Shown: piece by piece, positions 2,113-18,126 of the stretch
Layout of the letters: the number at the start of each line of letters is the position of its first letter
Position numbering within the stretch: position 1 is the stretch's first letter
Origin: Kordia antarctica
Lineage (GTDB): Bacteria; Bacteroidota; Bacteroidia; Flavobacteriales; Flavobacteriaceae
Direction: 5' to 3'
Assembly: GCF_009901525.1 (NCBI RefSeq)
Contig: NZ_CP019288.1
Location: forward strand, 4,679,501 to 4,743,500
DNA length: 64,000 nt
Made by a program: the position numbers and the translations under genes
The notes under the pieces: generated by a model
What the model was told of the DNA's origin: nothing
Databases searched by the model: none
What the model saw: the letters and a program-made list of their open reading frames with translations, nothing else

Positions 2113-3624
2113 TTGAATATTCTCACTCAACAACAAGGCTTTCTATTCTTATTTTTATTTGCCATAGTAATGATTGGTTTAACTTGGATAGTCTCAAGAA
2201 ATAAATTCTGGACAGGTTCTCAAATAGGTTTTCTAAAAGCTGGTTCTAATGTATCATGGAGTTTCGGTGCTTTTAGTATAGCAGCATCATGGATTTGGGC
2301 ACCTGCTTTATTTGTAAGTGTTCAGAAATCCTATGAATTTGGTCTAGCGGGTATGTTTTGGTTTACATTACCAAATATTCTTGCATTAGTATTATTTGCA
2401 TTTCTTGCTCCCAAAATAAGGGAAAGATTACCAGGCGGCTATACTTTACCAGATTGGATAAGATATAGATTTAAGGATGAAAGGATTCATAAAATATACC
2501 TTTCAATCTTTTTTTGGTATCAAATTATGGCAATTACAGTACAAATATATGTAGGAGGTCTTTTAATTTCTTTTTTGACAGACATACAATTAGATATTGT
2601 TATGATTTTGCTTTCAAGTATTAGCCTGTCATACGCCTTAATATCAGGATTAAGAGCCTCAATTATAACTGATTTTTTACAGATGATAATGATTTTAGGG
2701 GTGGGGATTATTATTATTCCTTGGGCTATATTTGAGGCTGGTGGACTCGAATCAGTTTCAAAGGGTTTTGGGGGGCTTCAACATATAGATAGTATTTTTA
2801 ATCCTGAAGTAGCATACTCCTTTGGTATAGTAACTTCAATTGGATTAATCGCTGGAGCAATTTCAGATCAGCAATATTGGCAAAGAAGTTTTGCAATTAA
2901 AAAAGGTGATCTTGTAAAATCATTTATTTGGGGTGGCGTATTATTTGGTATTGTTCCAATTGCGCTATCTGTATTAGGTTTTATGGGAGCAAATCCTGAT
3001 TTGAATATATCAATGCCGCAGGGAGTTGAATTACCTATGATTGGAGTAGCTGTAGTAGCCAAATTATTACCAACTTGGGCAACTTTATTATTTGTTATTA
3101 TGCTAATGAGTGGTTTGAGTTCTACCCTTGACTCTGGTTTTGCTGCGGGTGCTTCTCTATGGGCAATCGATTCTGTGAAATTCTCAAAATTTGAAAAAGA
3201 AGTTTTGAGAAAAGAGAGGCTTGGACAAAGCTTAACAAAAGAAGAAAATACAATAAAAAAGGATCTTGATAGAAAAACTCCAATACGGGCTAGGCAAGCT
3301 ATGATTGGGTTAGCAATTATAGGATTAATTGTGGCATTAATAGTTGAATATGTTCCAAGCTTTACCCTAGATGTCTTGTGGTGGATTTTTAATGCAATTG
3401 CATCTATGGTCGTTGTCCCGACAGTTTTGGGGTTGTTTTGGAACAAACTTTCTGCTAGAGGAATATTGTTTGGTTTTATAGGTTCTTTTATTGGTATTAT
3501 AGTTTTTATTTGGGGTAGTGTAGTAAGCAATACAAATATGATAGTCTTTTCTGCTGTATTTATTATACTTATAAGTCTTATAATGAACCTATCATTCCCT
3601 AGTAAAGAGAAGTTTCATGGTTAG
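2113..3624 (+). CDS. sodium:solute symporter (SSS) family membrane protein
   Basis: A 503-residue polytopic inner-membrane protein with the hydrophobic pattern and length of the sodium:solute symporter family. Characteristic stretches are GGYTLPDWIRYRF in the early loop, the GLRASIITDFLQ segment and a late LMSGLSSTLDSGFAAGAS helix, which is the conserved SSS region near the sodium site. It starts at TTG 2 bases after the stop of the NACHT-FGE gene, with no other good start nearby, so translational coupling is likely. The substrate cannot be told from sequence. The tie to a STAND ATPase is unusual for a nutrient transporter: the transporter may be a membrane effector whose opening disturbs ion balance, or simply a co-transcribed neighbour. 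The family call is firm; the role is inference. Confidence 0.9.
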   Translation: MNILTQQQGFLFLFLFAIVMIGLTWIVSRNKFWTGSQIGFLKAGSNVSWSFGAFSIAASWIWAPALFVSVQKSYEFGLAGMFWFTLPNILALVLFAFLAPKIRERLPGGYTLPDWIRYRFKDERIHKIYLSIFFWYQIMAITVQIYVGGLLISFLTDIQLDIVMILLSSISLSYALISGLRASIITDFLQMIMILGVGIIIIPWAIFEAGGLESVSKGFGGLQHIDSIFNPEVAYSFGIVTSIGLIAGAISDQQYWQRSFAIKKGDLVKSFIWGGVLFGIVPIALSVLGFMGANPDLNISMPQGVELPMIGVAVVAKLLPTWATLLFVIMLMSGLSSTLDSGFAAGASLWAIDSVKFSKFEKEVLRKERLGQSLTKEENTIKKDLDRKTPIRARQAMIGLAIIGLIVALIVEYVPSFTLDVLWWIFNAIASMVVVPTVLGLFWNKLSARGILFGFIGSFIGIIVFIWGSVVSNTNMIVFSAVFIILISLIMNLSFPSKEKFHG

Positions 3625-3744
3625 GTGTTTGATTCCTAAAATAACTTATCTAATATAAAAATGGATGAATTTAAATTATAAATAAAGCACATAGCGGTAA
3701 CAAAGGTAACTGTTGCGAGAGTCTGTCAATAAAAAGTAACAAGT

Positions 3745-3906
3745 TCATCGTACACTAAACTCTTTTAAGAGCTTTTTTAGGTTTTTAGTAGGTGTCTTGT
3801 GCTGAAAAAGATAGTCTATTATTTCTAAATCTCTATCCGTACCGCAACACAAAACTGAATAAATGATTTTCGGATTGTATCTGAAATTTTTGGGTATTAG
3901 GAAAAT
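3745..3906 (-). pseudogene. C-terminal remnant of an unidentified protein
   Basis: An open frame of about 53 codons with no start codon, ending in TGA. It contains the coding-like segment PKIIYSVLCCGTDRDL and a basic end KNLKKLLKEFSVR. It lies in the 420-base gap between the symporter and the IS1595-like element and faces the opposite way to the symporter. It is most easily read as the tail of a gene lost by insertion or deletion. I do not recognise the family. The rest of 3625-4043 shows no gene. Confidence 0.3.
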
Positions 3907-4033
3907 TTACACAGCTTTTTTTATTAACAACTACCTAACTTCACTAGTGTCCGCTAAAAGTTAAATAAATTTATGAAAAACACACAACTCTTATTGCAAC
4001 GGTATTATTTTAAGTTAGTTGATTGTCAATAAT

Positions 4034-4043: not shown

Positions 4044-4990
4044 TGAGTTACACACTTAGTGTCTGTTTAATATTTTTATGATAAACAGGATTAGCTATAA
4101 CCATTCTTTCGATAGTTTTATGAAAGATAGTCTCTTTAAATTGAGAACGATTAATTCTAAAACAAAACTCATCAAAGTATGCCTGAACGTGCCATTTACC
4201 AACATGAGTTGGAATGGCTCTTAACCAAGATTTCAATTGCATGATTACAATATGTAATTCTTACCATTGTTACTAAATTTTTGTTCAATATTATACTCTT
4301 TTTTTAAAGGTGAATATCCTCTCCATTTATCGGTCACTATTTTCGCAGTTGTACTAATATGCTCTTCAAATATAGGTGTTAATGACTTAGCAGAATAATC
4401 ATCAATAGCTCTTACATATACTCTTTTAATTTGGTGTTTTGCACTCAGTTCTACTGCTATCACTGCTTTTTTCTTTTTAGAATCATAGCTTCTACCTTGT
4501 TTACCTTCTTCTTTTCCACCTACGGTGAATTCATCTACATGCACTAATTCTGATAAAGGATACTGCTGGCTACTCTTCATTGCTTTCCTGACTTTTTGCA
4601 TAAAAAACCAAGCTGTACCTTGACGAATATTGAAGCGTTTTCCCATTTGAATACTTGAAACACTTTTGCTACTTGTTGACATTTCAAATACTACACAAAA
4701 GGCTTTTTGCAATCCAAATTTCACCTTGTGAAACAAAGTGTTAGCTGTAGCGCTTTCCACATGATTACAACCATAACAATGATATCTATAACCAGATTTT
4801 TCACAACCTTTTGTATGACCACATTTCATACATTTAAAACCATCTTGCCATTTAATTTTTGCCAAATAAGCCTTGCAGGCTTCATCATCTGGTAATTCTT
4901 TTATAAAGCTCAGTATATTTTGTCCTTTAAATGCTTCCATAAACTCCGTTTTTATTGATTACAAGATACGGAGCTTAAATGACTAACTCA
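4044..4990. mobile_element. IS1595-family insertion sequence, about 947 bp
   Basis: The element has imperfect terminal inverted repeats: the left end reads TGAGTTACACACTTAG and the right end, on the other strand, TGAGTTAGTCATTTAAG. It carries one transposase gene on the minus strand whose stop codon (4048-4050) lies inside the left inverted repeat, so the element is very compact. Exact 10-bp direct repeats flank it, which suggests a single recent insertion without later end rearrangement. Its transposase is frameshifted, so it is probably no longer autonomous. Confidence 0.8.
4048..4940 (-). pseudogene. IS1595-like (ISXO2-type) transposase, frameshifted
   Basis: The N-terminal part (4245-4940) has a zinc ribbon (CMKCGH...CYGC) and the start of the DDE fold (VHVDEFTVGGKEEG, TDKWRGYSPL). 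The C-terminal part continues in another frame: the second frame reads ELHIVIMQLKSWLRAIPTHV followed by FDEFCFRINRSQ, the usual C-terminus of this family. The two frames cross near nt 4255-4265, where the first frame runs into a stop. One small indel restores a protein of about 295 residues. Programmed frameshifting is possible but I see no slippery run of A or T at the junction, so a disabling mutation is more likely. Confidence 0.85.
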
Positions 4991-5313: not shown

Positions 5314-6888
5314 ATGTGTATACGACAATTTGAAATTAAACAAGTAAAAGCTCCTTTTCTTAGTAAACCTCATTATTCTATTTCAGGTCTAGATCAATTG
5401 GGTCTGAATCTAACTAGTGAGAGGATATTCGATTTAATACTACCTGGTTTAAATAATGTTACACAGCGTATAAGATACTACTCATTTTATTGTTGGTTCT
5501 TCGATTGGTATGCTAGCGACATTGGAAATACTTCAGCAAAGGTTCAAAATACTTATTTAAGGAGAGCTGAGTTTTTAGCAGCATTGGTTGCCGCTCATAG
5601 AAATAATGGAGGAGTTCCTGGTATTACAAAAGCAAAAGCTATTTATGAAAAGTCTAGTGATGTCATCGAGTTGGTTTTAGGAACTCAAGAGGGTTCAACT
5701 AGCGAAGGTTCATACTGGAAAAACAGTCGTGGAATACTCGGTCAATACTATATAAACTCAATAAAACAATTAGGCATTCTAAGAGATCAAGGAGATAATG
5801 CAGGTTTATATGTAAGAACTCATTTTGAGCACGATTACAAGGTTTCAGGTAAGCAATTAGCAGAAGCTTTCCGCAATAACATATCTTCCAGAGAATCATT
5901 GTTTATAGATTGTGTCAAGAATAATTCAATATGTAAAGATTCTCTTGAAGAATTATCAAATTTTTTTGATTTAACACAAGTGCCAAAAAATAGTGATGAA
6001 GAAAAATTATTATGGCAACTACTTACAGGTGTAGACAAACCAAAGGAAAATGAAGAGAGTTTCTTGAGAAAGAGCACGGTAGATTTACTTTTGAGGGATA
6101 TAGATTCTTTAGAAACCGAAGAAAAGTATAATCAATTAAGTGTTCCGCTAAAGATATATAATGAAAAGCTTAATGAAGATAGCGATTCAACTTCTAAGCT
6201 ATGGTATTTTTTTATGCTAGAACAATTTTGGAGTGTAGCTTGTACAGGCTGCCTCAATGCAATCTTGTCAATTATTGAAGATAAAGCGGGTAATTCTTGG
6301 TTTGATGAGACTACTTTAATTAAACACACAGTAGAAGAAATAACTCAAATATTTAATAGTAAAAATGTAAATACAGATAACCAATTGTTCTTTGATGGAA
6401 CTATAATAGATTACAGAATTGACAAGTTAGTTGATCTTTCAAAAAAGGAGAAAAACCCTTATCTTAAAATATTATGGGCGATTTGTGCTATTCAAAAACT
6501 ATACATTGATAATAGATCAAATAGAGATGTACTTTTAAAGGTTTCTCAACAATATAAAATACATACACCGAGTAGTTTTCTAAACACTCTCACAGATTTT
6601 GATAAGAAGCAATCACTTGTAATTGAAGATTTTCTTTATTATTTTATAACAAGATACGTGTTGAATCGTCATCATTTTGTAGCTCTTAGAAAGTTGAATT
6701 CAACTCAAAACACAGCTAAGTTTTATCGCGAAGAAGGTATGATTCGATATATAAGTAGTTTCTTGTATGACTACTCATCACCTCGGATTCATACATTATA
6801 TGATTTCCTTTCTGACCTAAATGTGATTGATAAAAAAAACAAGTCTATAACATCTTCTGGTAGACAAAAATTAAAGGACTTGGTCTAG
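5314..6888 (+). CDS. uncharacterised protein, first gene of the CARF/PLD/helicase operon
   Basis: About 524 residues from the ATG at 5314; the frame also allows a TTG at 5266 (540 residues), but the 16 extra residues are hydrophobic and do not resemble the rest, so I prefer the ATG. I do not recognise the family. The N-terminal part has a conserved-looking run, SISGLDQLGLNLTSERIF then NNVTQRIRYYSFYCWFFDWY, rich in aromatic residues. The middle is helical and charged, and the C-terminus (IHTLYDFLSDLNVIDKKNKS) could be a small winged-helix-like end. There are no signal peptide or membrane segments, so it is probably cytosolic. Its stop overlaps the GTG of the next gene by one base (TAGTG), so the two products are probably made together. 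It may be a sensor or adaptor, by position only. Confidence 0.7.
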   Translation: MCIRQFEIKQVKAPFLSKPHYSISGLDQLGLNLTSERIFDLILPGLNNVTQRIRYYSFYCWFFDWYASDIGNTSAKVQNTYLRRAEFLAALVAAHRNNGGVPGITKAKAIYEKSSDVIELVLGTQEGSTSEGSYWKNSRGILGQYYINSIKQLGILRDQGDNAGLYVRTHFEHDYKVSGKQLAEAFRNNISSRESLFIDCVKNNSICKDSLEELSNFFDLTQVPKNSDEEKLLWQLLTGVDKPKENEESFLRKSTVDLLLRDIDSLETEEKYNQLSVPLKIYNEKLNEDSDSTSKLWYFFMLEQFWSVACTGCLNAILSIIEDKAGNSWFDETTLIKHTVEEITQIFNSKNVNTDNQLFFDGTIIDYRIDKLVDLSKKEKNPYLKILWAICAIQKLYIDNRSNRDVLLKVSQQYKIHTPSSFLNTLTDFDKKQSLVIEDFLYYFITRYVLNRHHFVALRKLNSTQNTAKFYREEGMIRYISSFLYDYSSPRIHTLYDFLSDLNVIDKKNKSITSSGRQKLKDLV

Positions 6889-9581
6889 TGAACATTGAAA
6901 GAACAAACATATTAGAGTTAATAGGCTCAGGTAAGAATAAATATCATAGCTGTGTAATTACTAGCTATAGTATTGATTTATGGTTTTTTGAACAAACAGT
7001 TCTGCCAAAATTACGAGCTGCAGGAGTAACCAATATCAATCTGTTTATTGACGCTAGAATGCTAGAAAAGTATTTGTCTACTCATTTGTGTTGCAGCCTA
7101 CAAAAATTTAAAGCGAACTATAGTATTACTCCAGTGAATCTCAATGGTGCATTTCATCCAAAAATGATGATGTTAATAGGAAAGGATAAAGGGTATCTAT
7201 CTATAGGTTCTGGAAATATTACCTCTTCAGGAATGCTATACAATGATGAGATCTGGTCTTCTTTTTATTATTCAACAACAAAGCAACATACAGCATCAAT
7301 TTTTAAAGATACATGGTCATTTGTCTTGCAGTTAGAAGAGAGAACTTCTGGAATAAATTCAAAAAAAATAGGATGGATTTCTCAACATGCAAGTTGGTTG
7401 AACAGTCTAAATAGTGGCTCTAGTATTATTGATGATATCTCATATCAGTGGTTTCATTCCTTTTCAGATAAATCATTGTATGATTTAGTCTTTAACTCTT
7501 TTCCTAGAAAGCCAAAGAGCATAAAAGTTATAGGCCCATATTTTAATAAAAACGGAGCTTTCATTTCACAACTGATTAGAGATTTAGAACCTAAATACAT
7601 ACACTGCATAATAGATAAAGAGAATGGAATACTTCCTTTAGGTTTTGAATCTGATATTGATTGTCAATTCTCAGACTGGTCGGATGTGATTTCATCAACC
7701 AATGGAACATCGATTCAAAGGTTACACGCTAAAGCAATTCAAGTAGAATATGAAAGTGAGACTATTTTTATTTTAGGAAGTGCCAATCCAACAATGGAAG
7801 CTTTTGGAGCAAAGAATAAGAATTCCAAAAATTCAGAAGCCATTATTGTTATCAAAAAAGAAAATTCAGATGATACTTTCAAAAGCTTAGGAATAGAAAT
7901 ACCTGAAAAAGGAACTTTAGAGTTACATCTTCTAGAACAACCTACTGGGATAGATTCTGAGGTTTTTTCAGTAAAGAAAGAAGTTACTCTTAAGCATGCA
8001 GAATTAAATGGAACAGAGTTGTTTGTGGAGGCATTTTTTAACATTGAACCTTATGGTTCTCTTTGTATTTATGATAATGATAATAATGATATAAAACGGT
8101 TTGATTTATCAGACTTGGAATCGCAAGATTTTATTTTTTCATTAGATAACGATAATGCTTTTAAGTGTGCTTTTTATGACGAGGATAAGAGGATTTCAAA
8201 TTTTGCTTTAATACAGAATAGAGAGGTTTTAGAAAAATCGAATCCTGATGAGAGATTGGCTAGACTTCTAAGTTTTGAGCATTTAGATATTTTTAATTCT
8301 TTGAATTACGAACTGGTTCTTGATTTTATGGAGAGTGAAAGAGTCTTTAGTGATTCAACTGGCAGAGCAATAGTATCTGAACCTTCGGAACCTGATGAAG
8401 ACAAAGGAGAAGTATTAAGTGAGCTTGAATACAATAGAAATGCCTCATTGTCCATCGAACAAGATGTGCCTATTAATAATGTTACATCGATGATTGAAGA
8501 GTTCTTAGATGTGCTTAAAATTAGAGATAGTTATGAAGAGGATTTTTCTGATAATTCAGAAACACTAGCATTAGAAGCTGGAGATGATGGTTTAGCAGAA
8601 GAATATGAAGTTGAGCACCAGAAAACAAATATTACAACTTCTGAAGGAGAGAGGATTCAAAGAAAAATTATTAAAACCATTCAATCTATAAACAAGCTTA
8701 TTGACGCAAGGTTTGAAAATAGTATTCCTCAAGATCAACGAACTTTAAATGCGCTATTCATTGGCTTTCATATCTTAATGCATTTTTGGAAAGAAAAGTA
8801 TAGTGAGGAAATATGTGAGATTAAATTAAAATATACAGACTTGAAGTCTCTTAAAAAGCTAGAAAAACGATTTAATTTAAAGAGGTGGGAATCTCAAATA
8901 GATTGCAAGAATAATGAGGTTGGCTATTATATTGGTATTAGTCAATTAGATAATATTCTTAGAGATTTGGATGTTGTTGAAGGTTTTAAGCTTAGCGGAA
9001 ACATTTCAGAAACCAAAGAGATCTTGCACAGTTTCATAAAAGTAAAGTATTGTCGTTCTTCTGAAGATGATAATTTATGTTTGATCTTTATTGATGATAG
9101 TTATCTGAATATACTATGTGCCATTCAGAAATCAGAACTATCTTTAAATAAGCCTCAAAAGATCAAGTTTTTTATATTAATAATGAAGCTGTTGGATGAT
9201 TTAAGGTGGAAAGATAATTTTGAATACTGGCGTGACCTTATAATTTTAAATACTTGCGAGATACTCGAAATAGAAACTTTTCTTGTTGATACTGTTCTTA
9301 AAGATGAATTGAGACAATTGAAAGGTGGTGCTACTTTTATTTTGATTTCAAAATACATAGAATATAAACAGTCTTTTAAAAGTATTGTTTTTAAAAAAAT
9401 GTCAGTCTATTTAGCAGGTTCTTTTATTTATAGTTCTACGTATGGTTTTTGTAGATTAAAGACGGTGAGGAATAATAATTTTATTGATTTAGAATCTCCT
9501 ATTGGAATGTATATAGGGCATAAAAATTATACAGGATATGATGAAGTTTTTATAGGTGAGAAAGCGAAATTTTTTATTTGA
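6888..9581 (+). CDS. large PLD-superfamily (HKD) protein
   Basis: 897 residues from a GTG that overlaps the upstream stop. The N-terminal third is a PLD-like phosphodiesterase with two HKD half-sites: FHPKMMMLIG with H90 and K92 followed by SIGSGN (about 107-110), and LHAKAIQ (H about 280) followed by LGSANPT (about 297-301). Two HKD motifs in one chain form one active site in this superfamily, whose members include non-specific nucleases and DISARM DrmC-like proteins. The remaining 550 residues are unfamiliar: an acidic linker (about 490-580), then a helical domain. With a helicase and a CARF nuclease next door, a nuclease role is more likely than a lipase role. No signal peptide is seen. 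Confidence 0.8.
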   Translation: MNIERTNILELIGSGKNKYHSCVITSYSIDLWFFEQTVLPKLRAAGVTNINLFIDARMLEKYLSTHLCCSLQKFKANYSITPVNLNGAFHPKMMMLIGKDKGYLSIGSGNITSSGMLYNDEIWSSFYYSTTKQHTASIFKDTWSFVLQLEERTSGINSKKIGWISQHASWLNSLNSGSSIIDDISYQWFHSFSDKSLYDLVFNSFPRKPKSIKVIGPYFNKNGAFISQLIRDLEPKYIHCIIDKENGILPLGFESDIDCQFSDWSDVISSTNGTSIQRLHAKAIQVEYESETIFILGSANPTMEAFGAKNKNSKNSEAIIVIKKENSDDTFKSLGIEIPEKGTLELHLLEQPTGIDSEVFSVKKEVTLKHAELNGTELFVEAFFNIEPYGSLCIYDNDNNDIKRFDLSDLESQDFIFSLDNDNAFKCAFYDEDKRISNFALIQNREVLEKSNPDERLARLLSFEHLDIFNSLNYELVLDFMESERVFSDSTGRAIVSEPSEPDEDKGEVLSELEYNRNASLSIEQDVPINNVTSMIEEFLDVLKIRDSYEEDFSDNSETLALEAGDDGLAEEYEVEHQKTNITTSEGERIQRKIIKTIQSINKLIDARFENSIPQDQRTLNALFIGFHILMHFWKEKYSEEICEIKLKYTDLKSLKKLEKRFNLKRWESQIDCKNNEVGYYIGISQLDNILRDLDVVEGFKLSGNISETKEILHSFIKVKYCRSSEDDNLCLIFIDDSYLNILCAIQKSELSLNKPQKIKFFILIMKLLDDLRWKDNFEYWRDLIILNTCEILEIETFLVDTVLKDELRQLKGGATFILISKYIEYKQSFKSIVFKKMSVYLAGSFIYSSTYGFCRLKTVRNNNFIDLESPIGMYIGHKNYTGYDEVFIGEKAKFFI

Positions 9582-9610
9582 TAGTTTGAAAACGATAGAG
9601 AATATTTAAG

Positions 9611-12600
9611 ATGAGAGGAAAAATAATCCTGAAGTATGATACACTAGGGTACATCGAATATAACGTTGATTCGAGGGTCTCTTATGTAATTGAGGAAAAC
9701 TTAAATTTCAATATAGGAGAAGAAGTAAATTTTGAAATGATTGAAAAACGTGTTACTGGTACTGACGATACTTTTGATCGTGCTATTCATTTAACACAAA
9801 TAGAAAAAAAACTTGAAACAGAAATATCCAGAGAAGAAAGAGGATCAATAATTGCCACTACAATTCTTGAAATCATCAAACCTTCCACCATTGTTTTAGA
9901 ATTTTATAAAGGTCGAAAAGCTATTCTTCCACTACAAAATATTGCTTGGAATTTACCAAGTTCTGAAAAGTTATTTGATACATATAAAGTTGGTGATAGC
10001 ACTGAAATAGTAGTTTTAGAGAACGAACCAAATAAGTCAGTTTTAGTAAGTAGAAAACACTTAGTACCAAGACCTAGCGAGGAAAAAAATTGGCAAGATT
10101 TAAAGATTGGTGATATTTTAAAAGGAACTATTGTACAAGTTCTAGAAACTCAATTAGTTTTTAGCTTTCCAAATAAATTATTTGGAACGGCAATTAAACC
10201 TAAAGATTTTTCGAAAACTATTGGTGAAGTAATGGAAGTACAAGTCCTTTCAAAATCTGTAGATCGATTTTTACTTAGTACTACTGTTTCTTTTGAGGCT
10301 ACAAAATCAAATAAAAAAACTACTCAGAAATATAATGATGATTCTCTTGTAAAATCAAAACTCACATATAAACATGGAGACGAATCATTAAAAGATGCTA
10401 ATTCCTTTTTCAATTCATTGTATTATGATTACTGTGAAGAAAGCGAAACTAATAATGAAAAAAAGTTTTTCCAAGAGGCATTTGCAGATAATCACAATTT
10501 ATTTGACTTAGCAATTTCACTAAAATTACCACTACACATACAATTTACTTCTACTAGTTGGGATGGAGATTTCAAATCAAAACTTTTACCATATTTGGCT
10601 AGTTTTTCACCAGAGTTGAATTCTGAACAGAAGGCTATTGATTATCTATGCAAACAGAAGTATTGGATGAATATAGATTCTAGAAAGGAGAACAGGTGCT
10701 ATTGGACATTATTCAACGATGAATTATACATTTCAGGTTTTGTTACTGAAGAACCAGATGAACGTTTCTTTTTTGTAAGTAAATTAGAGATAGGTAGAAA
10801 AAACAAGGATTCTTCATATTACAAAGAGAAATCACAAAAAAACGGATGTTTCTTATATGATTCTAAAATCTTCTTTTTAAAGCTTCATTCGAACATACCT
10901 GTTCTAGATAAACCATTAGCAAAAGTATTTGACGTACTCAAGACAAAATCTGATGCCTTTTTATTGTACGGAGAACTTAAAAAGAAAACGGGTGCTCTTT
11001 TAATGGAGGAGGGGGAATCCTTAAAGATTTTTGATAAGTTTTTGGAATATCAAATATACAGGGAAAAAGAAAACAATAAGCAGAAGGCGATCTCTGTTTC
11101 TGGACATATCTCAAGGATTCCGGCAATTGATTGCGAAGTATCAATAGAAACAATTGCAACGGAATCTTTACAAAACATCTATGAGTCAAGTGAATTAGAA
11201 AGAATTCTGGTATCAATAAAGACTTCAGAGGATTCAAGTAAAGAAAAGAGTAATGAAAAAGAGTTGGTCTGGTTCTGCGACGCAGAATTTGAAATTGTTG
11301 ATAATACAGCGCGTTTTCATTTTTCCGTGATGGATAAAAGCATCGAAGATTTAGAAAGTGAGTTTTATGTTGAGCCAAAGCTTTCTCTCAAACAATGGCA
11401 GGTACAAAGGAAAGTAATTCAAGATTTTTTTGATAAGCGTATCAATATTTCGCACATTGAAACCATGTTTCTAAAACCAGATAAAATCAAGGCGCCAAAA
11501 TTTGAACCTTTTAACTTTATCAATCCCTTATTAAATAAAACACGTATAGATATTCCTGATAACAATCAAGTTAAATCAGTTATCAAAGCTGTAGGAAACG
11601 AAAATATATTTCTAATTCAAGGGCCTCCAGGAACAGGTAAGACTACTGTGATTGCTGAGATTGTTCAACAACTAACAAATAAAGGTGAAAGGGTACTAGT
11701 TACTAGTCAAACTCATGTAGCAGTTGACAATGTATTAGACAAGCTTTCACAATTAGATCATTTAACCTTAGTTAGATTCGGAAATAAAAAAAGAATAATG
11801 TCTGGCTTAGAGGGTTTTCATATTGATAATCAAGTTGATGCTTTAGCAATGCATTATGGAAGTGTAGTCGAAAATAACATCAAACTAGTTTTAAAGAAAA
11901 TAGAATGTGCCAACTTATCAGATGAAGAAATAACTATAACTTTATTAGAGTATTTAAGTAGTATTACAATTAACTATCCTCCAAATTTTGATGAACGACT
12001 TACAAAGTTAAACAAGGATTTTATTTCCACACTTAGTGATTTAGCTATTGACCAATTAAACAATTTAATTAGTGTTTTGAAGACTTGGCAAAAAGAAATA
12101 GCTTCAAGTCTTCTAGATATTGCACGACCAATAATTTATGATTCTATGAATGTTGGTTTTGCTACATGTATTGGTGTTCGTGTTGACAAAGGTTTGTCAG
12201 GTAGAAACATAATATTTGATACTGTTATTATAGATGAAGCAGGTAAAGCAAATTTATCGGAATCTATTGCGGCAGTTTCTATGGCAAAGAAAGTCATTCT
12301 AGTTGGAGATCATAAACAACTTCCACCATATATTGATAGTACTTTAATTGATCTTAAAGATAAAGATAGCTTTCCAAATAGTGACCGATTTAATAGGAGT
12401 AAATTTAACAATGAAGATATAAAACATGCATTGACGACTTCACTTTTTGAATTTTTAGTGAATAAGAATAAAGCTAATTTATTTCCGCCTACTAATATTG
12501 AATTACTGAATTTTCAGCATCGAATGCATCCAGATATTGGAGAGTTTGTATCAAATGTTTTCTATGATAGTGATATCCAAATGGGTGCTTCAACTTCAAA

Positions 12601-13693
12601 TAATACATTGCCTTTGGCTTTTCCCTTCGACAAGCAAGTAATATTTATTGATACAGCTAACAGTAAAACGCCATATGAATCTAATGGAGGAACATCTTAT
12701 AAGAATAATACTGAAGCCTTCTGTATTTCAGAAATAATAATCCCAAGACTGCTTGATGAGAAGGTAGGTAAAGACAAATTTGCTGTGATAGCACCATATA
12801 AAGCTCAAGTAGCCAATATAATAAGTAAGTTAGAGCAATGTGACATAAGTGGTGTTGAAGTCTCAACATTGGATTCATTCCAAGGAATGGAATTTGACAT
12901 TATCATTTTTAGCTTTACACGCTCAAAGAGATGGGAAAAGGTAGGTTTTTTGGATGATGCACGTAGATTAAATGTAGCACTTTCAAGAGCAAAAAAGAAA
13001 TTAATTCTTGTAGGGAATAGTAAGACTCTAATGGCTAGAAGAAGTCATTATGATGAGGTGTTTAACTATACAAAAATGTATAGAAATCTTGTAAAGCTCA
13101 GTAAAAATGAGGAAAAAGGAAATTTTATAGACATCAATAACTTAAGTGCTGAAAGTAAATTTGATAAGGCAGAAAAGAAATTAAAGAAAGATGTAGCGTA
13201 TAATTGCTTATATCTGAATAGTGTGAATCTAGGAGACGACCAATTACATATATTTAATATAGAGAATTTGATTGACGGAGCTCTTTTTGATAAAGGAAAA
13301 ACAAAATCGTTTCAAGATAGTGAGAAAATTAAGTTGGTTGTTGAAAAAATAAATATAGCGAAGAAAAAGTTTTACTTAAAAGAAACTGTTACTAATTCTG
13401 CAAGAAAAAAGGCGATCCATTCGAATAAAAAAACACCAAATCATCAACTTGAAACAAAAATGTTTCAATTAAAATTCTTTAATGAACATAAAGTAGGAGA
13501 TGTTGTAAAGTGTAGATATAAATGGCATATAAAAGGATTAGGGCATTTTTTTGAAATCTTTAAAGGGCTTGATGGATTAATGTATGACTCAGATTTTAAA
13601 ATGACTACATATGTTTCTAAGCGGGAATATAATATGTTTATATCTAAAATTGATAAATACAAAAAGCAAATAACTTTAATAGGTAAGAAATAA
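9611..13693 (+). CDS. UPF1-like superfamily 1 helicase with S1-like domains
   Basis: 1360 residues. Near the N-terminus are two tandem S1/OB-like regions (about 75-140 and 158-220; for example GDILKGTIVQVLE). A middle region of unknown fold follows. The helicase core has Walker A GPPGTGKTT (about 671-679), motif Ia (TSQTHVAVDNVLDKL), Walker B as IIDEAGKA (about 872-879), motif III GDHKQLPP, motif IV HRMHPDIGEF, motif V STLDSFQGMEFD and motif VI RRLNVALSRAKK, the UPF1/Dna2 (SF1B) pattern. The C-terminus (KVGDVVKCRYKW onward) looks like another OB-type module. S1 domains usually bind RNA, so an RNA or R-loop substrate is plausible. It lies 29 bases after the PLD gene and 2 before the next. The helicase plus PLD pair recalls Mokosh, but the rest of this operon does not match it. 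Confidence 0.9.
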   Translation: MRGKIILKYDTLGYIEYNVDSRVSYVIEENLNFNIGEEVNFEMIEKRVTGTDDTFDRAIHLTQIEKKLETEISREERGSIIATTILEIIKPSTIVLEFYKGRKAILPLQNIAWNLPSSEKLFDTYKVGDSTEIVVLENEPNKSVLVSRKHLVPRPSEEKNWQDLKIGDILKGTIVQVLETQLVFSFPNKLFGTAIKPKDFSKTIGEVMEVQVLSKSVDRFLLSTTVSFEATKSNKKTTQKYNDDSLVKSKLTYKHGDESLKDANSFFNSLYYDYCEESETNNEKKFFQEAFADNHNLFDLAISLKLPLHIQFTSTSWDGDFKSKLLPYLASFSPELNSEQKAIDYLCKQKYWMNIDSRKENRCYWTLFNDELYISGFVTEEPDERFFFVSKLEIGRKNKDSSYYKEKSQKNGCFLYDSKIFFLKLHSNIPVLDKPLAKVFDVLKTKSDAFLLYGELKKKTGALLMEEGESLKIFDKFLEYQIYREKENNKQKAISVSGHISRIPAIDCEVSIETIATESLQNIYESSELERILVSIKTSEDSSKEKSNEKELVWFCDAEFEIVDNTARFHFSVMDKSIEDLESEFYVEPKLSLKQWQVQRKVIQDFFDKRINISHIETMFLKPDKIKAPKFEPFNFINPLLNKTRIDIPDNNQVKSVIKAVGNENIFLIQGPPGTGKTTVIAEIVQQLTNKGERVLVTSQTHVAVDNVLDKLSQLDHLTLVRFGNKKRIMSGLEGFHIDNQVDALAMHYGSVVENNIKLVLKKIECANLSDEEITITLLEYLSSITINYPPNFDERLTKLNKDFISTLSDLAIDQLNNLISVLKTWQKEIASSLLDIARPIIYDSMNVGFATCIGVRVDKGLSGRNIIFDTVIIDEAGKANLSESIAAVSMAKKVILVGDHKQLPPYIDSTLIDLKDKDSFPNSDRFNRSKFNNEDIKHALTTSLFEFLVNKNKANLFPPTNIELLNFQHRMHPDIGEFVSNVFYDSDIQMGASTSNNTLPLAFPFDKQVIFIDTANSKTPYESNGGTSYKNNTEAFCISEIIIPRLLDEKVGKDKFAVIAPYKAQVANIISKLEQCDISGVEVSTLDSFQGMEFDIIIFSFTRSKRWEKVGFLDDARRLNVALSRAKKKLILVGNSKTLMARRSHYDEVFNYTKMYRNLVKLSKNEEKGNFIDINNLSAESKFDKAEKKLKKDVAYNCLYLNSVNLGDDQLHIFNIENLIDGALFDKGKTKSFQDSEKIKLVVEKINIAKKKFYLKETVTNSARKKAIHSNKKTPNHQLETKMFQLKFFNEHKVGDVVKCRYKWHIKGLGHFFEIFKGLDGLMYDSDFKMTTYVSKREYNMFISKIDKYKKQITLIGKK

Positions 13694-13695
13694 GA

Positions 13696-15039
13696 ATGGC
13701 AAATTATAGATTAAATATAGCACGTTTTGTTGATTTAGAAGCTAAAGCTAATAATAGCCTAAAAGCTATTGTAAGTATTCAATATCCTATTTATTATATC
13801 CATGCTGAAATAGTTGACACCAAGCCACATGTTCTTTATGAATTAGACAAGGTTGTTGTTAATAGTTCAAAAGTTTTAAAATCGTTTGATAATGATAATA
13901 TTGCCAAACTACTTTCATTACCATCATCAGTCATAAAGAGTAGGAAAGCGTATTTGCAGCATAATGAATATATAGATAAAAATGATGTTTTAAATGGTTT
14001 GGGAGAAAATTATATAAGTACTGAAGAGGAAAAAATGGAACATCATATTTCTCAAGACTTCGTTATTGATGGCATAAGTCTCAAACCACTCCCGCAAGAA
14101 CTTTATAATTATAATTATAAGGATGAATATATTTTTGAAAGTGATTATGATCACTACACAAATAAAAATGGAGAAACAGTTTCTAGAAGACCGTTTTCTC
14201 CAGATTTGACACATCAACCTATTCAAAAAGACATTATTGAAAAAAATCTTTTGACTGTAGCAGTGAGTGAACGAGGCAACTATAATATTCCTATAGGTCT
14301 AAAAACATTATCGTCACTTTCATACAGTGTGTGTACTTTACCTATTTTTATTGGTTTATTTGAAAATAATGGAGTGTTAAAACGTAAGTTAATTAATGGT
14401 TTTGATTCCTTAGGGAGAAACGATGATCTAAAAGTATTTCTTCCAAATCTAGAAAAACGAATTACAAATTTAGAACTTAGATTAAATGAGTGGGGATTCA
14501 AAGATGGAAATTCAAGATTAAACTTTGAATCAAATTGGAGAGAGATAGATTTAAAGCGTGAAGAAGATAAATTATTCTTTTTTTCAAAAGAAGACTTAAA
14601 AAACTTTTTCAATCAAAATTATCAAATTGTAAAAAACGAAAAATCTTGGAAAGAAGATATAGAATTAGAGGATGTTTTTTATGAAGCTAATTCTTTAGGT
14701 ATAATAGTAACGTGTAGCGTATTTGAAAAAGCTAGGTTTAAAAAAGAACTACTTGCAAATGTAAAAAGGAGAAGTGATTATTATTTACAAAAAAACACTA
14801 CATCTGGCGTTTGGACTATATTTTTTGACATGATTCAAGGAGATGATTTTATAAGGGATACTATTGAGTTTTCTAGCCTTATTGATGATTTGAGAAACGA
14901 ACGCTTTCCTAAAGAAAAAATACTAGCTAAGATAATCACTTATAAAAATTACAGAAAAATTTTAGTGGCTTTAGAAGAATACAGATTATTGGAAGAAATA
15001 GATATAATGAATCATATGATAAACTTATTAAATGAATAA
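13696..15039 (+). CDS. uncharacterised protein with possible N-terminal winged helix
   Basis: 447 residues, starting 2 bases after the helicase stop and overlapping the next gene by 8 bases. The family is not recognised. Residues about 40-100 look like a small winged-helix or HTH fold (NIAKLLSLPSSVIKSRKAYL), a layout seen in other PLD-associated defence proteins where the domain acts in DNA binding or assembly. The middle is acidic and aromatic (NYNYKDEYIFESDYD) and the C-terminus is helical and charged. No catalytic motif, membrane segment or signal peptide is visible. It may be a structural subunit bridging the helicase and the second PLD protein, by position only. Confidence 0.65.
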   Translation: MANYRLNIARFVDLEAKANNSLKAIVSIQYPIYYIHAEIVDTKPHVLYELDKVVVNSSKVLKSFDNDNIAKLLSLPSSVIKSRKAYLQHNEYIDKNDVLNGLGENYISTEEEKMEHHISQDFVIDGISLKPLPQELYNYNYKDEYIFESDYDHYTNKNGETVSRRPFSPDLTHQPIQKDIIEKNLLTVAVSERGNYNIPIGLKTLSSLSYSVCTLPIFIGLFENNGVLKRKLINGFDSLGRNDDLKVFLPNLEKRITNLELRLNEWGFKDGNSRLNFESNWREIDLKREEDKLFFFSKEDLKNFFNQNYQIVKNEKSWKEDIELEDVFYEANSLGIIVTCSVFEKARFKKELLANVKRRSDYYLQKNTTSGVWTIFFDMIQGDDFIRDTIEFSSLIDDLRNERFPKEKILAKIITYKNYRKILVALEEYRLLEEIDIMNHMINLLNE

Positions 15040-16453
15040 TAGTTTGATACATAAAGAGGTTTTTGAAGGAGGTTATTTCATCTTGAATGATAACAAAACT
15101 GATGTTAACTTAGGAGAATACCCTAACTTATTATTTACCTTAGATGGATATCCTCAAATAAAAAATCATATAATTAAACTTATAAGAAATGCTGTTAAAG
15201 TAATCAAGCTATGTTCTTTTATAATAAGTGATGAAGAAATTGCATTTGAATTAATAGAGAAGTGTAAAAATACAGATATAGCTGTTTTTTTATTGACGCA
15301 ATTAGATGATAAAAAGTTTAATTTTGACTTTTTGCCTGAAGAAGTATCTACTAGACATGGTAAAGGGCATATGTCTATTATTACAAAACTGTATGGCCTT
15401 GGAGCACACGTGCGAGGAGCAACTTCAGCACATGCAAAGTTTATTATTTGCGATAATAATGACGCGCTAATTATGAGTGCCAATATTACTTCTCCATCTT
15501 TGAATACAAATCCAGAAACAGGTGTTATTCTTAAAGAAGAGAATGGTTATAAAGAGTTAGACAAGCTATTCGATATCCTTTTTCAAAAAGGAACAGGGTA
15601 TACAGGTTTTACAATATCAGGCAGAAAACAACTTATTTCATCGCGTTCCACGAAAATCACAAAAGAAATGCTCGACTTAGTTGATGAATCAAAAATAAAA
15701 TTTACTTGGGGAAAATTAAACAATTCTTTATACGAAAGCATTGTTAATTTGATTAAAAATGCTAATTCTGATATTTTTATTTCGACTTATTCAGTTGTAG
15801 GTTTAGATAAAATTTCTGAATTGATTGAAGAACTTAGAAAGGCCATTGATAGAGGTCTTGCAATAAAACTATTCTGTAGAGCAATGAATCATCGTAAGGA
15901 TCATTTAGATAGTTGTTTGAAATTAAAGCAAATCGGAATCGAAATTTATGGGGATTACTTTAATCACTCAAAAGGTATTTATTCAAATGATAAAGGCATT
16001 TTGTTTACGGCAAATATTGACGGTAACCACGGACTAATAAATGGTTTTGAAGTTGGAGCAATACTGGAAGGTAATCAACTTAATGACTTTAAGAATTTTG
16101 TAGAATGGCAAATTGAAACGGCGCCTTTCCATTTTACTATTAATCCTACTAAGCAAGCATATTATAATATGTACGATGTTTATACAGGTTTTAAAAAGAT
16201 TAGTAATCCTATTTTTCCAACGAGTTGTAAATTCTATACCAATATTGAAATCCAAAATGAGCTTTTTCAAAATCCTATATATTTGTTAACAGATGAGAAT
16301 CAGAAGGTTTTGAAAATGAATATTGGAGACCGAGAATATGATGTGAAAATGGAAGAAAACGATATCACTGTTATAAATAAATCACTAAATAAAAGCTATA
16401 ATATGCAATCGTACTTACTAAAGTATAAAGACATAGAAGTAGTAAACAATTAA
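15032..16453 (+). CDS. PLD-family nuclease-like protein with two HKD motifs
   Basis: 473 residues. The first HKD motif is SAHAKFIICDNND (H about 134, K about 136) followed by LIMSANITSP; the second is YFNHSKGIYSND (H about 312, K about 314) followed by LFTANIDG. The paired HxK...N signature is that of PLDc_2 proteins, which form one active site from two halves and often cut nucleic acids. It is a different paralogue from the larger PLD protein upstream, with little similarity outside the motifs. The ATG lies inside the previous gene (8-base overlap) and the next ATG follows its stop directly, so it is tightly embedded in the operon. C-terminal residues about 390-473 form a small extra domain of unknown fold. 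Expected to be cytosolic. Confidence 0.85.
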   Translation: MNNSLIHKEVFEGGYFILNDNKTDVNLGEYPNLLFTLDGYPQIKNHIIKLIRNAVKVIKLCSFIISDEEIAFELIEKCKNTDIAVFLLTQLDDKKFNFDFLPEEVSTRHGKGHMSIITKLYGLGAHVRGATSAHAKFIICDNNDALIMSANITSPSLNTNPETGVILKEENGYKELDKLFDILFQKGTGYTGFTISGRKQLISSRSTKITKEMLDLVDESKIKFTWGKLNNSLYESIVNLIKNANSDIFISTYSVVGLDKISELIEELRKAIDRGLAIKLFCRAMNHRKDHLDSCLKLKQIGIEIYGDYFNHSKGIYSNDKGILFTANIDGNHGLINGFEVGAILEGNQLNDFKNFVEWQIETAPFHFTINPTKQAYYNMYDVYTGFKKISNPIFPTSCKFYTNIEIQNELFQNPIYLLTDENQKVLKMNIGDREYDVKMEENDITVINKSLNKSYNMQSYLLKYKDIEVVNN

Positions 16454-17032
16454 ATGGAAAATACACTCAAATACCTAGAAGAATGGCGTGACCTAGCAAG
16501 TCATGGTAATTTTAAATTGGCTGAAAATTTATACTATGAGAAGTTGTTTCCCGAAGTAATTTCTATTTTCTGCGATAAGTACCAATCTGAGTTTTCAGAA
16601 AAAGGAGTCTTAATATCATTACTTGGGTTTTCACCAGAACCACTTATATTAACTGCTAGAGCAGTTAAGCCAATGCACCATTTTATTTTGACTACGGAAA
16701 TTCGTGAAGACATTATTGATCGAATTCACAACTATCTAGATACTGACTTTGAACTTGTTATTATTGATTCCCCAGATTTTCAATCAATTTACAAATCACT
16801 AAAAGAGATCTTGTATAAAGTAAATACAACAAACGTTACTCTTGATATTACTGGAGGTAAAAAGTCTATGGTGGCTTCTGCTGCTATTTTTGGTAAAGAC
16901 TATAGATTTAGAATTACTTATGTGGATTTTGAAGAGTACATAAAAGAACTCAGAAAACCATTACCAGGATCTGAAATATTAAAAACTGTTTATAATCCTG
17001 ACTTAGATCAACCAGAAATATTTTTAAAGTAA
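16454..17032 (+). CDS. stand-alone CARF-like domain protein
   Basis: 192 residues, beginning at the base after the previous stop. The central feature is TLDITGGKKSMVASAAIFG (about 130-148), the ligand-loop motif of CARF-type Rossmann domains (the T-G-G/K-S form seen in Card1, Can1/Can2 and Csm6-like proteins). Before it lie GVLISLLGFSPEPLILTARA, a strand-loop typical of CARF N-termini, and an aspartate-rich strand FELVIIDSPD. No nuclease or HTH domain is attached. In type III CRISPR systems single-domain CARF proteins can be ring nucleases that degrade cyclic oligoadenylate; here no Cas10 is present, so either a sensor or a ring nuclease is possible. Its last base overlaps the next ATG (TAATG), so a complex with the CARF nuclease is likely. 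Confidence 0.75.
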   Translation: MENTLKYLEEWRDLASHGNFKLAENLYYEKLFPEVISIFCDKYQSEFSEKGVLISLLGFSPEPLILTARAVKPMHHFILTTEIREDIIDRIHNYLDTDFELVIIDSPDFQSIYKSLKEILYKVNTTNVTLDITGGKKSMVASAAIFGKDYRFRITYVDFEEYIKELRKPLPGSEILKTVYNPDLDQPEIFLK

Positions 17033-18126
17033 TGACGCATCAAATCGTATTATTAGGAGGTCAGTTACTGCCTGTGTATATAGGTGTTTTAGAAAGGAAA
17101 CCACAAGTTGTTCATATTCTATATACTAAAGAAACAGTTAGGCTTAGAACTCGATTGGTTAAGCAATTTAATGGAATTCAAATATTTGATTATCAAATCA
17201 ATCCTTATGATTATGACTCGATACAAGAAACTGTCACTAATATAATATGTAATAATGAGGGTGCTACTTTTGAATTGAATTTAACTAGTGGTACTAAGTT
17301 GATGGCATTAGCGAGTCAACAAGTTATTAATACTTTGGATTGCTTTAGTTTTTATATCGATCAAAAACAAAATATGATTGATTTATCTAACGGAACCAAA
17401 ACCAAAATAAATTCTTTAATTTCGACCAGAACATTTCTCTCTTTATCTAATCATAATACGTTTACATCAACTACTTTGAAATCATTCAATAAGGAGGAGT
17501 TAGCATTGGCAAATTCAATTTTTGTGTTGAGAAAAAATAAATCTGGTATAGCAAAACTATTTAAGTTGTTTAGAACATTAAAAGCTGATTCTGAATCAAA
17601 GAGTTTTTCTTACTCTAATTCTAAATACAAAATTTCTTGGAGGAATAATATTCTTTCGGTAAAAGCACCAAGATTTAGTCTTAACGCTAAAGGAAAAAAT
17701 GCTTTTAAAATATTGACAACAGGATTATGGTGGGAATTAATTATTAGTATCGTTGTAAATGATTGGAAGTCCGCAAAAGAAATTCTTATGAGTGTGGCAA
17801 TCAAATCCAATAAGGGTGGTAATATTGATAAAAATGAAATAGATATTCTCATCAATACTGGGCAAAATGTTTTTTTTATTGAGTGTAAATCAGGAATTAT
17901 ATTACAATCAGATATAAACAAAATCAAAACAGTTGGTAGATTCTATGGCGGAATAAGTTCTAAATCTATACTTGTATCGTTCTATAAACCTCAGAATTAT
18001 ATTATTGAAAAGTGTCTTGATTTAGGTATTGAACTGTTTTATTTAGTAGAAAATTCTTCAAAGCGTTATGAATTAAAGACACTTATTAATAAGTTAGATA
18101 GGTTATTAAACCGGATTGAATTATAA
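17032..18126 (+). CDS. Card1/DUF1887-like CARF plus PD-(D/E)xK nuclease
   Basis: 364 residues. The N-terminal CARF domain begins HQIVLLGGQLLPVYIG and has the ligand-loop signature ELNLTSGTKLMALAS (about 80-95). The C-terminal domain is a PD-(D/E)xK nuclease with GLWWELIIS (a candidate metal glutamate), DKNEIDILI with D271, and FFIECKSG with E284 and K286. This order and length match Card1/Can2-type proteins, which cut nucleic acids when cyclic oligoadenylate binds the CARF dimer; that comes from characterised type III CRISPR members. No type III locus or array lies in the window, so the activating ligand is unknown. It is the last gene of the operon. An alternative reading is a ligand-gated nuclease answering a signal made by a synthase elsewhere in the genome. 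Confidence 0.85.
   Translation: MTHQIVLLGGQLLPVYIGVLERKPQVVHILYTKETVRLRTRLVKQFNGIQIFDYQINPYDYDSIQETVTNIICNNEGATFELNLTSGTKLMALASQQVINTLDCFSFYIDQKQNMIDLSNGTKTKINSLISTRTFLSLSNHNTFTSTTLKSFNKEELALANSIFVLRKNKSGIAKLFKLFRTLKADSESKSFSYSNSKYKISWRNNILSVKAPRFSLNAKGKNAFKILTTGLWWELIISIVVNDWKSAKEILMSVAIKSNKGGNIDKNEIDILINTGQNVFFIECKSGIILQSDINKIKTVGRFYGGISSKSILVSFYKPQNYIIEKCLDLGIELFYLVENSSKRYELKTLINKLDRLLNRIEL

Follow-up and report, generated by a model that had tools for sequence, protein, structure and literature searches.

A five-gene cassette with a putative Mokosh-like helicase and nuclease core and a CARF arm: a candidate mobile defence system

Two modules within a run of seven genes

A stretch of 64,000 nucleotides from the genome of Kordia antarctica (contig NZ_CP019288.1, positions 4,679,501 to 4,743,500; hereafter the window) carries seven closely packed genes (g1 to g7), among them those for a UPF1-like helicase, two phospholipase D (PLD) family proteins and two CARF proteins. 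The initial annotation read them as one candidate defence system. This locus raises two questions, namely whether the seven genes belong together and what might switch on its CARF proteins, sensors of a kind that normally obey CRISPR alarm molecules. The analyses presented here reveal that the seven genes are two modules, g1-g2 (5314-9581) and g3-g7 (9611-18126), and that g3-g7 is one rare, well conserved travelling cassette. We propose, with a probability of roughly 0.55, that this cassette is a mobile anti-phage or anti-element defence system of two coupled arms.

The seven same-strand open reading frames span 5314 (or 5266)-6888, 6888-9581, 9611-13693, 13696-15039, 15032-16453, 16454-17032 and 17032-18126. 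Their junctions measure, in order from g1 to g7, -1, 29, 2, -8, 0 and -1 bases, and the tight same-strand run described initially was therefore borne out (-8 to 29 bases). At 29 bases, the gap separating g2 from g3 is the sole one longer than 2 bases, and it was taken as the module boundary. Among the matches listed, NCBIfam named none of the seven proteins above its cut-offs, and no Cas1- or Cas10-type gene appeared among the family matches listed for the seven genes, which agrees with the earlier view of a set without CRISPR genes. A Bacteroidota promoter pattern had 10 matches in the window, none of them at 5-18 kb, and 9 out of 100 shuffles reached as many.

In order to follow the cassette in other genomes, we scanned 84,980 species genomes with a g6 alignment. 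The 147 pattern matches yielded 10 confirmed loci, a number that is a lower bound because the scan was based on two short g6 stretches. All 10, found through g6 alone, carried the five genes in the same order. A viral scan with the PLD alignment returned one locus (L087), also with g3-g4-g5-g6-g7 in order, whose proteins were 37, 32, 37, 55 and 34% identical to those of the window, respectively. Conserved co-occurrence, which the initial annotation had suggested looking for, was thus found for g3-g7 in 12 out of 12 places (the window, the viral contig and the 10 genome loci). One genome locus (L093), from a metagenome-assembled genome (MAG), was identical to L087 over 19,989 bases and was omitted from the alignments, leaving 11 distinct copies, 8 of which remained at less than 90% g3 identity. 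The hosts included Gelidibacter pelagius, Cecembia rubra and Parapedobacter indicus, and the others were MAGs assigned to Crocinitomix, Bacteroidota, Flavobacteriia, Bacteroidia, Flavobacteriaceae, Ignavibacteriaceae and Rhizobium, the last two possibly misbinned.

The inner junctions of g3-g7 ranged from -8 to +2 bases in all 11 distinct copies, with the start codons chosen here. The identity matrices of the five proteins across these copies correlated with r values of 0.88-0.997, and for each of the 10 protein pairs none of 2000 permutations was as high. The most conserved protein was g6, with a mean identity of 0.65 among the 8 non-redundant copies compared to 0.42-0.51 for the other four. 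Likewise, the ratio of nonsynonymous to synonymous substitution rates (dN/dS) between the window and Gelidibacter was 0.05 for g6 and 0.13-0.19 for the others, dS exceeding 1 for g3 and g7. The gene set, its order, its co-inheritance and the purifying selection on it, as well as the conserved catalytic and pocket motifs described below, were all computed here. Searches with other parts of the cassette returned little. Viral scans with g4 alone or g3 alone found no relative, and plasmids held no g4 relative at E 0.01. Of 296 sampled genomes, 2 had a g4 match, which was complete solely in the genome of origin. The first 640 residues of g3 matched in 27 out of 395 genomes, where every match except that to its own genome was partial (residues 35-264) and no stronger than E 1e-6.

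The remaining two genes form a separate pair. The product of g1 (5314..6888, + strand, 524 aa) is a distant relative of ZacA/DUF6361 (PADLOC ZacA E 5e-4; Pfam DUF6361 E 0.11, under the cut-off), and g2 (6888..9581, + strand, 897 aa) encodes a PLD family protein distantly related to ZacB (PLDc_2 2.6e-12; ZacB 3.7e-11). A search of plasmids with the g1 protein gave 16 records, four of which were examined (Myroides, Polaromonas, Roseovarius and Prevotella). A g2-like gene lay directly 3' of the g1 relative in all four, and none of them showed a match to g4-g7 at E 1e-4; the Polaromonas plasmid carried a distant UPF1-type helicase on the opposite strand (27% over 321 residues). A viral scan added four more loci of the pair (L102-L105), with no g3-g7 match at E 1e-3, the contig of L104 ending with g2. 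Hence, g1 and g2 were paired in 8 out of 8 relatives examined (4 of the 16 plasmid records and the four viral loci), and genes 4-7 were absent from the 7 out of 7 that had DNA available behind the pair. Phage records contained no g2 relative at E 1e-3. Conversely, neither g1 nor g2 was found beside the cassette in the 8 other places whose upstream sequence reached at least 2.7 kb (7 distinct sequences), the upstream DNA of L090, L091 and L095 (268, 583 and 99 bases) being too short for a call. The shared strand, the tight spacing and the presence of two PLD proteins speak for all seven genes being one system, as first proposed, but the two modules occur apart in relatives in both directions and we regard such a single system as highly improbable. 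The pair (window 5314-9581; L034-L037; L102-L105) recurs alone, several times beside or inside restriction-modification loci, as in Myroides, where hsdS lies on one side of it and a subunit-R gene on the other. The pair has the appearance of a guest in restriction-modification loci, and this ZacA-like and PLD set is a candidate defence unit of its own.

A helicase core, a CARF arm and the question of the ligand

The first three genes of the cassette encode a predicted helicase and nuclease core. The g3 product (9611..13693, + strand, 1360 aa) is a UPF1/COG1112-type superfamily 1 (SF1) helicase with S1-like ends that matched AAA_11 and AAA_12, as well as MkoA at 1.3e-119 over residues 469-1162. 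Its Walker A motif GPPGTGKT (11621..11644, + strand) was invariant in 11 out of 11 aligned copies, as were the SF1 UPF1-like core motifs among the aligned copies. The helicase assignment of the initial annotation therefore stood, while its S1-like domains were weak in the window protein (E 0.085 for the N-terminal part; no S1 match at E 0.5 for the C-terminal part) and clear at the C-terminus of two relatives scanned (5e-13 and 5e-12). No Pkinase match was found in residues 1-640 of g3 at E 0.5, compared to 2.6e-39 in a Mokosh type I control (L082, from a Pseudanabaena plasmid).

Regarding g4 (13696..15039, + strand, 447 aa) and g1, both initially left as genes of unknown family, the former bears a winged helix and the latter keeps only the distant likeness to ZacA/DUF6361 described above. 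The g4 product is probably equivalent to the N-terminal part of MkoB. The MkoB model PDLC03923 matched it in 7 out of 11 copies (best 3.9e-6), WH_III-A matched in 7 out of 11, its profile matched winged-helix PDB chains at E 0.008 around profile positions 46-110, and hhalign against the MkoB of the control gave E 6.5e-5 and a probability of 64% over the winged helix. We also considered a synthase hidden in g4, and rejected it: the Pfam, PADLOC and PDB profiles gave winged helices and scattered weak matches, with no polymerase or cyclase. The g5 product (15032..16453, + strand, 473 aa) is a double-HKD PLD nuclease equivalent to the C-terminal part of MkoB (PLDc_2 3.3e-20, in two stretches; PADLOC DrmC 2.8e-19 and MkoB 8.4e-7). 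The residues of its first motif, H134-x-K136-x4-D141 (15431..15454, + strand), and the H and K of its second, H312-x-K314 (15965..15973, + strand), were invariant in 11 out of 11 copies. The claim of two double-HKD proteins thus holds in that g2 and g5 each matched PLDc_2 in two stretches, and fails for the D of the second g5 motif. Together, g3, g4 and g5 would be equivalent to MkoA and an MkoB divided in two, the g4 match being weak.

The last two genes encode the CARF proteins, and here the initial annotation was confirmed. The g6 product (16454..17032, + strand, 192 aa) is a Csm6-type CARF without effector (PADLOC CARF1--CARF_HEPN 2e-28, though under the Pfam cut-off). Its nearest solved relatives were Csm6 chains (e.g. 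5fsh, 5e-14) over profile positions 24-188 of 192, and the ring nuclease Sso2081 matched at 0.009 only. Its CARF strand-4 motif DITGGKK (16844..16864, + strand) was invariant in 11 out of 11 copies. The g7 product (17032..18126, + strand, 364 aa) combines a CARF with a PD-(D/E)xK nuclease of the Can2/Card1 kind (PADLOC CARF4--CARF_PDDEXK 8.8e-101; CARF_Card1 and Card1_endonuc both over cut-off), and its PDB profile matches were 8bao (2e-54, the best), Can2 7bdv (1e-25) and Card1 6wxw (1e-13). The nuclease motif D271...E284-C-K286 (17842..17889, + strand) was invariant in 11 out of 11, and the strand-4 motif reads TGGTK or TSGTK. The CARF lysines checked were invariant in all 11 copies as well, and the pockets of g6 and g7 look canonical. 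Elsewhere, a CARF-nuclease gene (L039 453-1628) gave the strongest PDLC01890 match in the phylum sample, and its contig had no g3-g6 match.

According to the mechanism that we propose, the g3 helicase, the g4 winged-helix adaptor and the g5 PLD nuclease would assemble into a Mokosh-like complex, which would load onto RNA that is foreign or aberrant (or onto nucleic acid under transcription) and then cut it. In the second arm, a small oligonucleotide would switch on g6 and g7, and the activated arm would degrade nucleic acids broadly, so that the infected cell is stopped. Being the most constrained protein and devoid of an effector, g6 might remove or tune the ligand or link it to the core. Complex formation, RNA as the target and ligand gating are the parts of this mechanism that we infer.

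Where the ligand would come from is the point on which the alternatives divide. The CARF arm could be an outsourced effector that answers cyclic oligoadenylate made by a type III CRISPR or CBASS of the host or of another element, or by a phage. The membership of g7 in the Can2/Card1 family, several relatives of which lie in type III-looking loci (judged by gene size and order only), and the canonical-looking pockets of g6 and g7 fit this idea. Host genomes gave it little support. The Cas10 palm model PF22335 matched 1 out of 11, right at the cut-off, SMODS matched the same MAG only (1 out of 11), and TIGR02577 matched 0 out of 11; the latter is a Cmr2 model that rang in just 4 out of 14 controls and adds little for other Cas10 types. 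Since the hosts are mostly drafts or MAGs and the TIGR02577 controls were weak, these blanks fall short of proof. The window genome had no Cas10 match with either PF22335 or TIGR02577, and its one cas1 match lies beside a 1478-aa gene taken by eye for cas9, a locus that would be type II if this neighbour is cas9. Moreover, the CARF genes stay with g3-g5 in all 12 places. An outsourced effector is therefore unlikely in our opinion.

Another source is suggested by a cousin operon on plasmids of Vibrio aerogenes, V. rumoiensis and Pontibrevibacter (four genes; L085 546-7371, L106 512-7340 and L084 5244-11807), annotated as a helicase, a gene of 365-369 aa, a PLD protein and a sigma-54 regulator. 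In V. aerogenes and Pontibrevibacter, profiles identified a MkoA-like helicase, a DrmC/MkoB-like PLD homologous to g5 (hhalign E 1e-20) and an RtcR_PspF1 CARF regulator, in which the CARF is fused to a sigma-54 activator in place of g6-g7. The V. rumoiensis operon matched at 76% in the middle gene and 92% in the regulator. Homology between g4 and the middle gene of the Vibrio cousin was unsupported, with hhalign probabilities of 0.2 and 4.6%. When viral sequences were scanned with the cousin PLD, no relative emerged. A copy of the cousin operon on a Klebsiella pneumoniae plasmid (L086 5178-11840) is broken by insertion sequences, and its PLD and regulator frames remain. This four-gene operon is apparently a further defence variant, and one core seems to be wired to two CARF outputs, a transcription activator and a nuclease.

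The cousin lends some weight to the possibility that no polymerase is needed, in that RNA fragments released during infection, whether by the PLD core or other RNases, would bind g6 and g7 directly, as cyclic-phosphate tRNA halves bind RtcR. Its RtcR_PspF1 regulator beside a MkoA-like helicase and a homologous PLD, and the scarcity of Cas10 matches in the hosts (1 and 0 out of 11 with the two models), point in this direction. On the other hand, PLD nucleases leave 3'-OH ends and are not known to yield cyclic phosphate. In addition, strand 4 of the two cousin CARFs read was NVSPGTPAMHA, without the lysine that g6 and g7 keep, which would suggest a distinct ligand because, according to the accessible part of PMC4012209, RtcR proteins mostly lack the strand-4 positive residue and might bind distinct ligands. 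We therefore hold this RNA-end signal to be possible, if doubtful.

A related and quite unlikely idea is that the helicase and PLD core itself makes the CARF alarm without a nucleotide polymerase, excising short oligo(A)-type pieces, possibly ring-closed, with g6 as the ring-opening off switch. In PLD catalysis a covalent phospho-histidine intermediate forms, which either water or a hydroxyl can attack, so the core could conceivably close RNA pieces into rings for the g6 and g7 pockets.

Cassette ends, neighbours and the defence reading

Cassettes that are nearly identical (96-99.6%) occurred in records of different hosts, and their flanks differed. Within a stretch of about 9.06 kb, which runs from some 333 bases 5' of g3 to about 368 past g7, L091, L092 and L094 share 97-99.6% identity, and the similarity stops beyond this span. 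L096 is 78% identical over the same span, and L095 is 96-97% identical over a stretch of 8.7 kb that begins 99 bases ahead of g3, at the contig start, and ends about 280 past g7. Both breaks fall at GTT in L091, L092, L094 and L096 (4 out of 5 loci), the left end of L095 lying beyond its contig. Behind g7, all five loci carry a 130-base attC-like hairpin, present in L095 as a distinct version of this type. Additional sites precede the L091 cassette and follow an Avs2 unit of some 6 kb in Cecembia, a later unit of L095 and two more units of L096. The ten sites (L091 129-258 and 9179-9308; L092 11919-12048 and 17968-18098; L094 11919-12048; L095 8702-8830 and 13463-13591; L096 11898-12028, 13661-13789 and 15532-15660) kept 19 pairs, with changes on both sides at 13, and 3 of the 10 are near-identical copies, so they represent fewer independent cases. 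A covariance model run over 22 sources, including the window, found its own 10 training sites and none else. A home-made attC finder was too strict, being blank even at loci with model-found sites, and its blanks are meaningless. The integron integrase TIGR02249 exceeded its cut-off in 1 out of 11 genomes, that of L095. Given the conserved attC-like hairpins at the unit ends, g3-g7 in these five loci resembles an integron-type cassette of roughly 9 kb, the window not being among them.

The defence neighbourhood proposed initially was also recognised, since defence genes adjoin several cassette copies. Ten flank proteins were hand-picked by size from 8 loci, and PADLOC families matched 6 of them at E 1e-5: Avs2, a type IIG enzyme, AbiEii, PDC-M62A, HerA and a type II enzyme fragment. 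Avs2 follows the cassette in Cecembia, the type IIG enzyme belongs to the Parapedobacter locus and AbiEii adjoins the viral copy. In the latter (L087), AbiEii (2e-100) with a small partner occupies 2358-3966, before the cassette, and a 418-aa protein, tyrosine recombinase-like by eye, is encoded behind it (15110-16366), which suggests an integrative element. In the window itself, a transposase-like gene (by eye) lies at 4245-4940 on the opposite strand, upstream of g1, and a protein with a C-terminal FGE-sulfatase domain (Pfam 5.7e-20) is encoded at 116-2110.

The cassette is probably a defence system, by analogy with its kin and judging from its neighbours and its mobility. Several observations weigh against the two-arm defence system that we favour. 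No ligand-synthase gene was found with the cassette, and ligand gating is therefore argued from homology alone. Formation of a g3-g5 complex and the g4 fold are predicted from weak profile matches, and the second HKD motif of g5 lacks its D. The g4 dN/dS between L092 and L094 was 0.47, calculated from few changes. Finally, 4 of the 10 flank proteins were without a defence-family match at E 1e-5, and the matches to HerA and to the type II enzyme (1e-13) were non-specific. An RNA repair or stress-response operon without a defence role would account for the RtcR-like cousin and for a helicase with S1 domains. Nevertheless, the cassette is rare, mobile and nuclease-rich, has Mokosh kin and lies beside defence genes in several loci, and we find such a role very unlikely.

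CARF effectors are understood almost solely through Cas10, and the cassette offers a testable case for another CARF alarm route. It would also connect Mokosh, CoCoNuT and the RtcR-associated operons as variants built on a single core of helicase, winged helix and nuclease. Should the roughly 9-kb cassettes truly be integron-type, arrays would carry whole multi-gene immune systems across bacterial groups.

Comparison with named systems

The initial annotation held that the locus shares single parts with DISARM, Mokosh and type III CRISPR and matches none as a whole. None of the named systems compared fits g3-g7 as a whole, while the likeness to Mokosh extends over three genes (g3, g4 and g5). 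DISARM consists of DrmA and DrmB with DrmC, of which only DrmC-like PLD matches were among those listed for g1-g7. The Azaca gene set is ZacA, ZacB and ZacC; g1 and g2 distantly resemble the first two, but no ZacC was among the matches listed for g1-g7 and the pair occurs alone or beside restriction-modification genes. With the Can2/Card1 effectors, g7 shares the fusion of a CARF to PD-(D/E)xK and the catalytic residues, but it lies outside a type III locus, in a genome without a Cas10 match.

CoCoNuT types II and III, in the accessible part of PMC11090510, combine the CnuH helicase with a winged-helix effector, often with an RtcR-like CARF, and III-C has a PLD effector. On that description, the cassette would share with them a UPF1-like helicase with OB-type domains, a winged-helix partner, a PLD effector and a nearby CARF. 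In contrast, the McrB-type GTPase CnuB and McrC were not among the matches listed for g1-g7.

The closest resemblance was to Mokosh type I, with which the cassette shares the COG1112 helicase as well as the winged helix and PLD of MkoB. In the control locus, MkoA unites a kinase with the helicase and MkoB the winged helix with the PLD. The g3 protein has S1-like domains in place of a Ser/Thr kinase match, the accessible part of PMC11672841 including a serine-threonine kinase domain in the definition of Mokosh type I. The accessible part of PMC10952713 tabulates a NERD domain for the same type; NERD was not among the matches listed for g3-g5 and appeared only as a weak g7 match (E 0.0098). Furthermore, MkoB is split over g4 and g5 in all 12 places, and two CARF genes are added. 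In the literature searched, which lacks most subscription papers, we found no description of a Mokosh-like core united with a CARF arm, and nothing on COG1112 together with CARF; three papers name both Mokosh and CARF, each a single time. Altogether, the core appears Mokosh-like and the CARF arm resembles that of type III CRISPR, both being of already known kinds, and it is their union that would constitute, within this literature, a new element.

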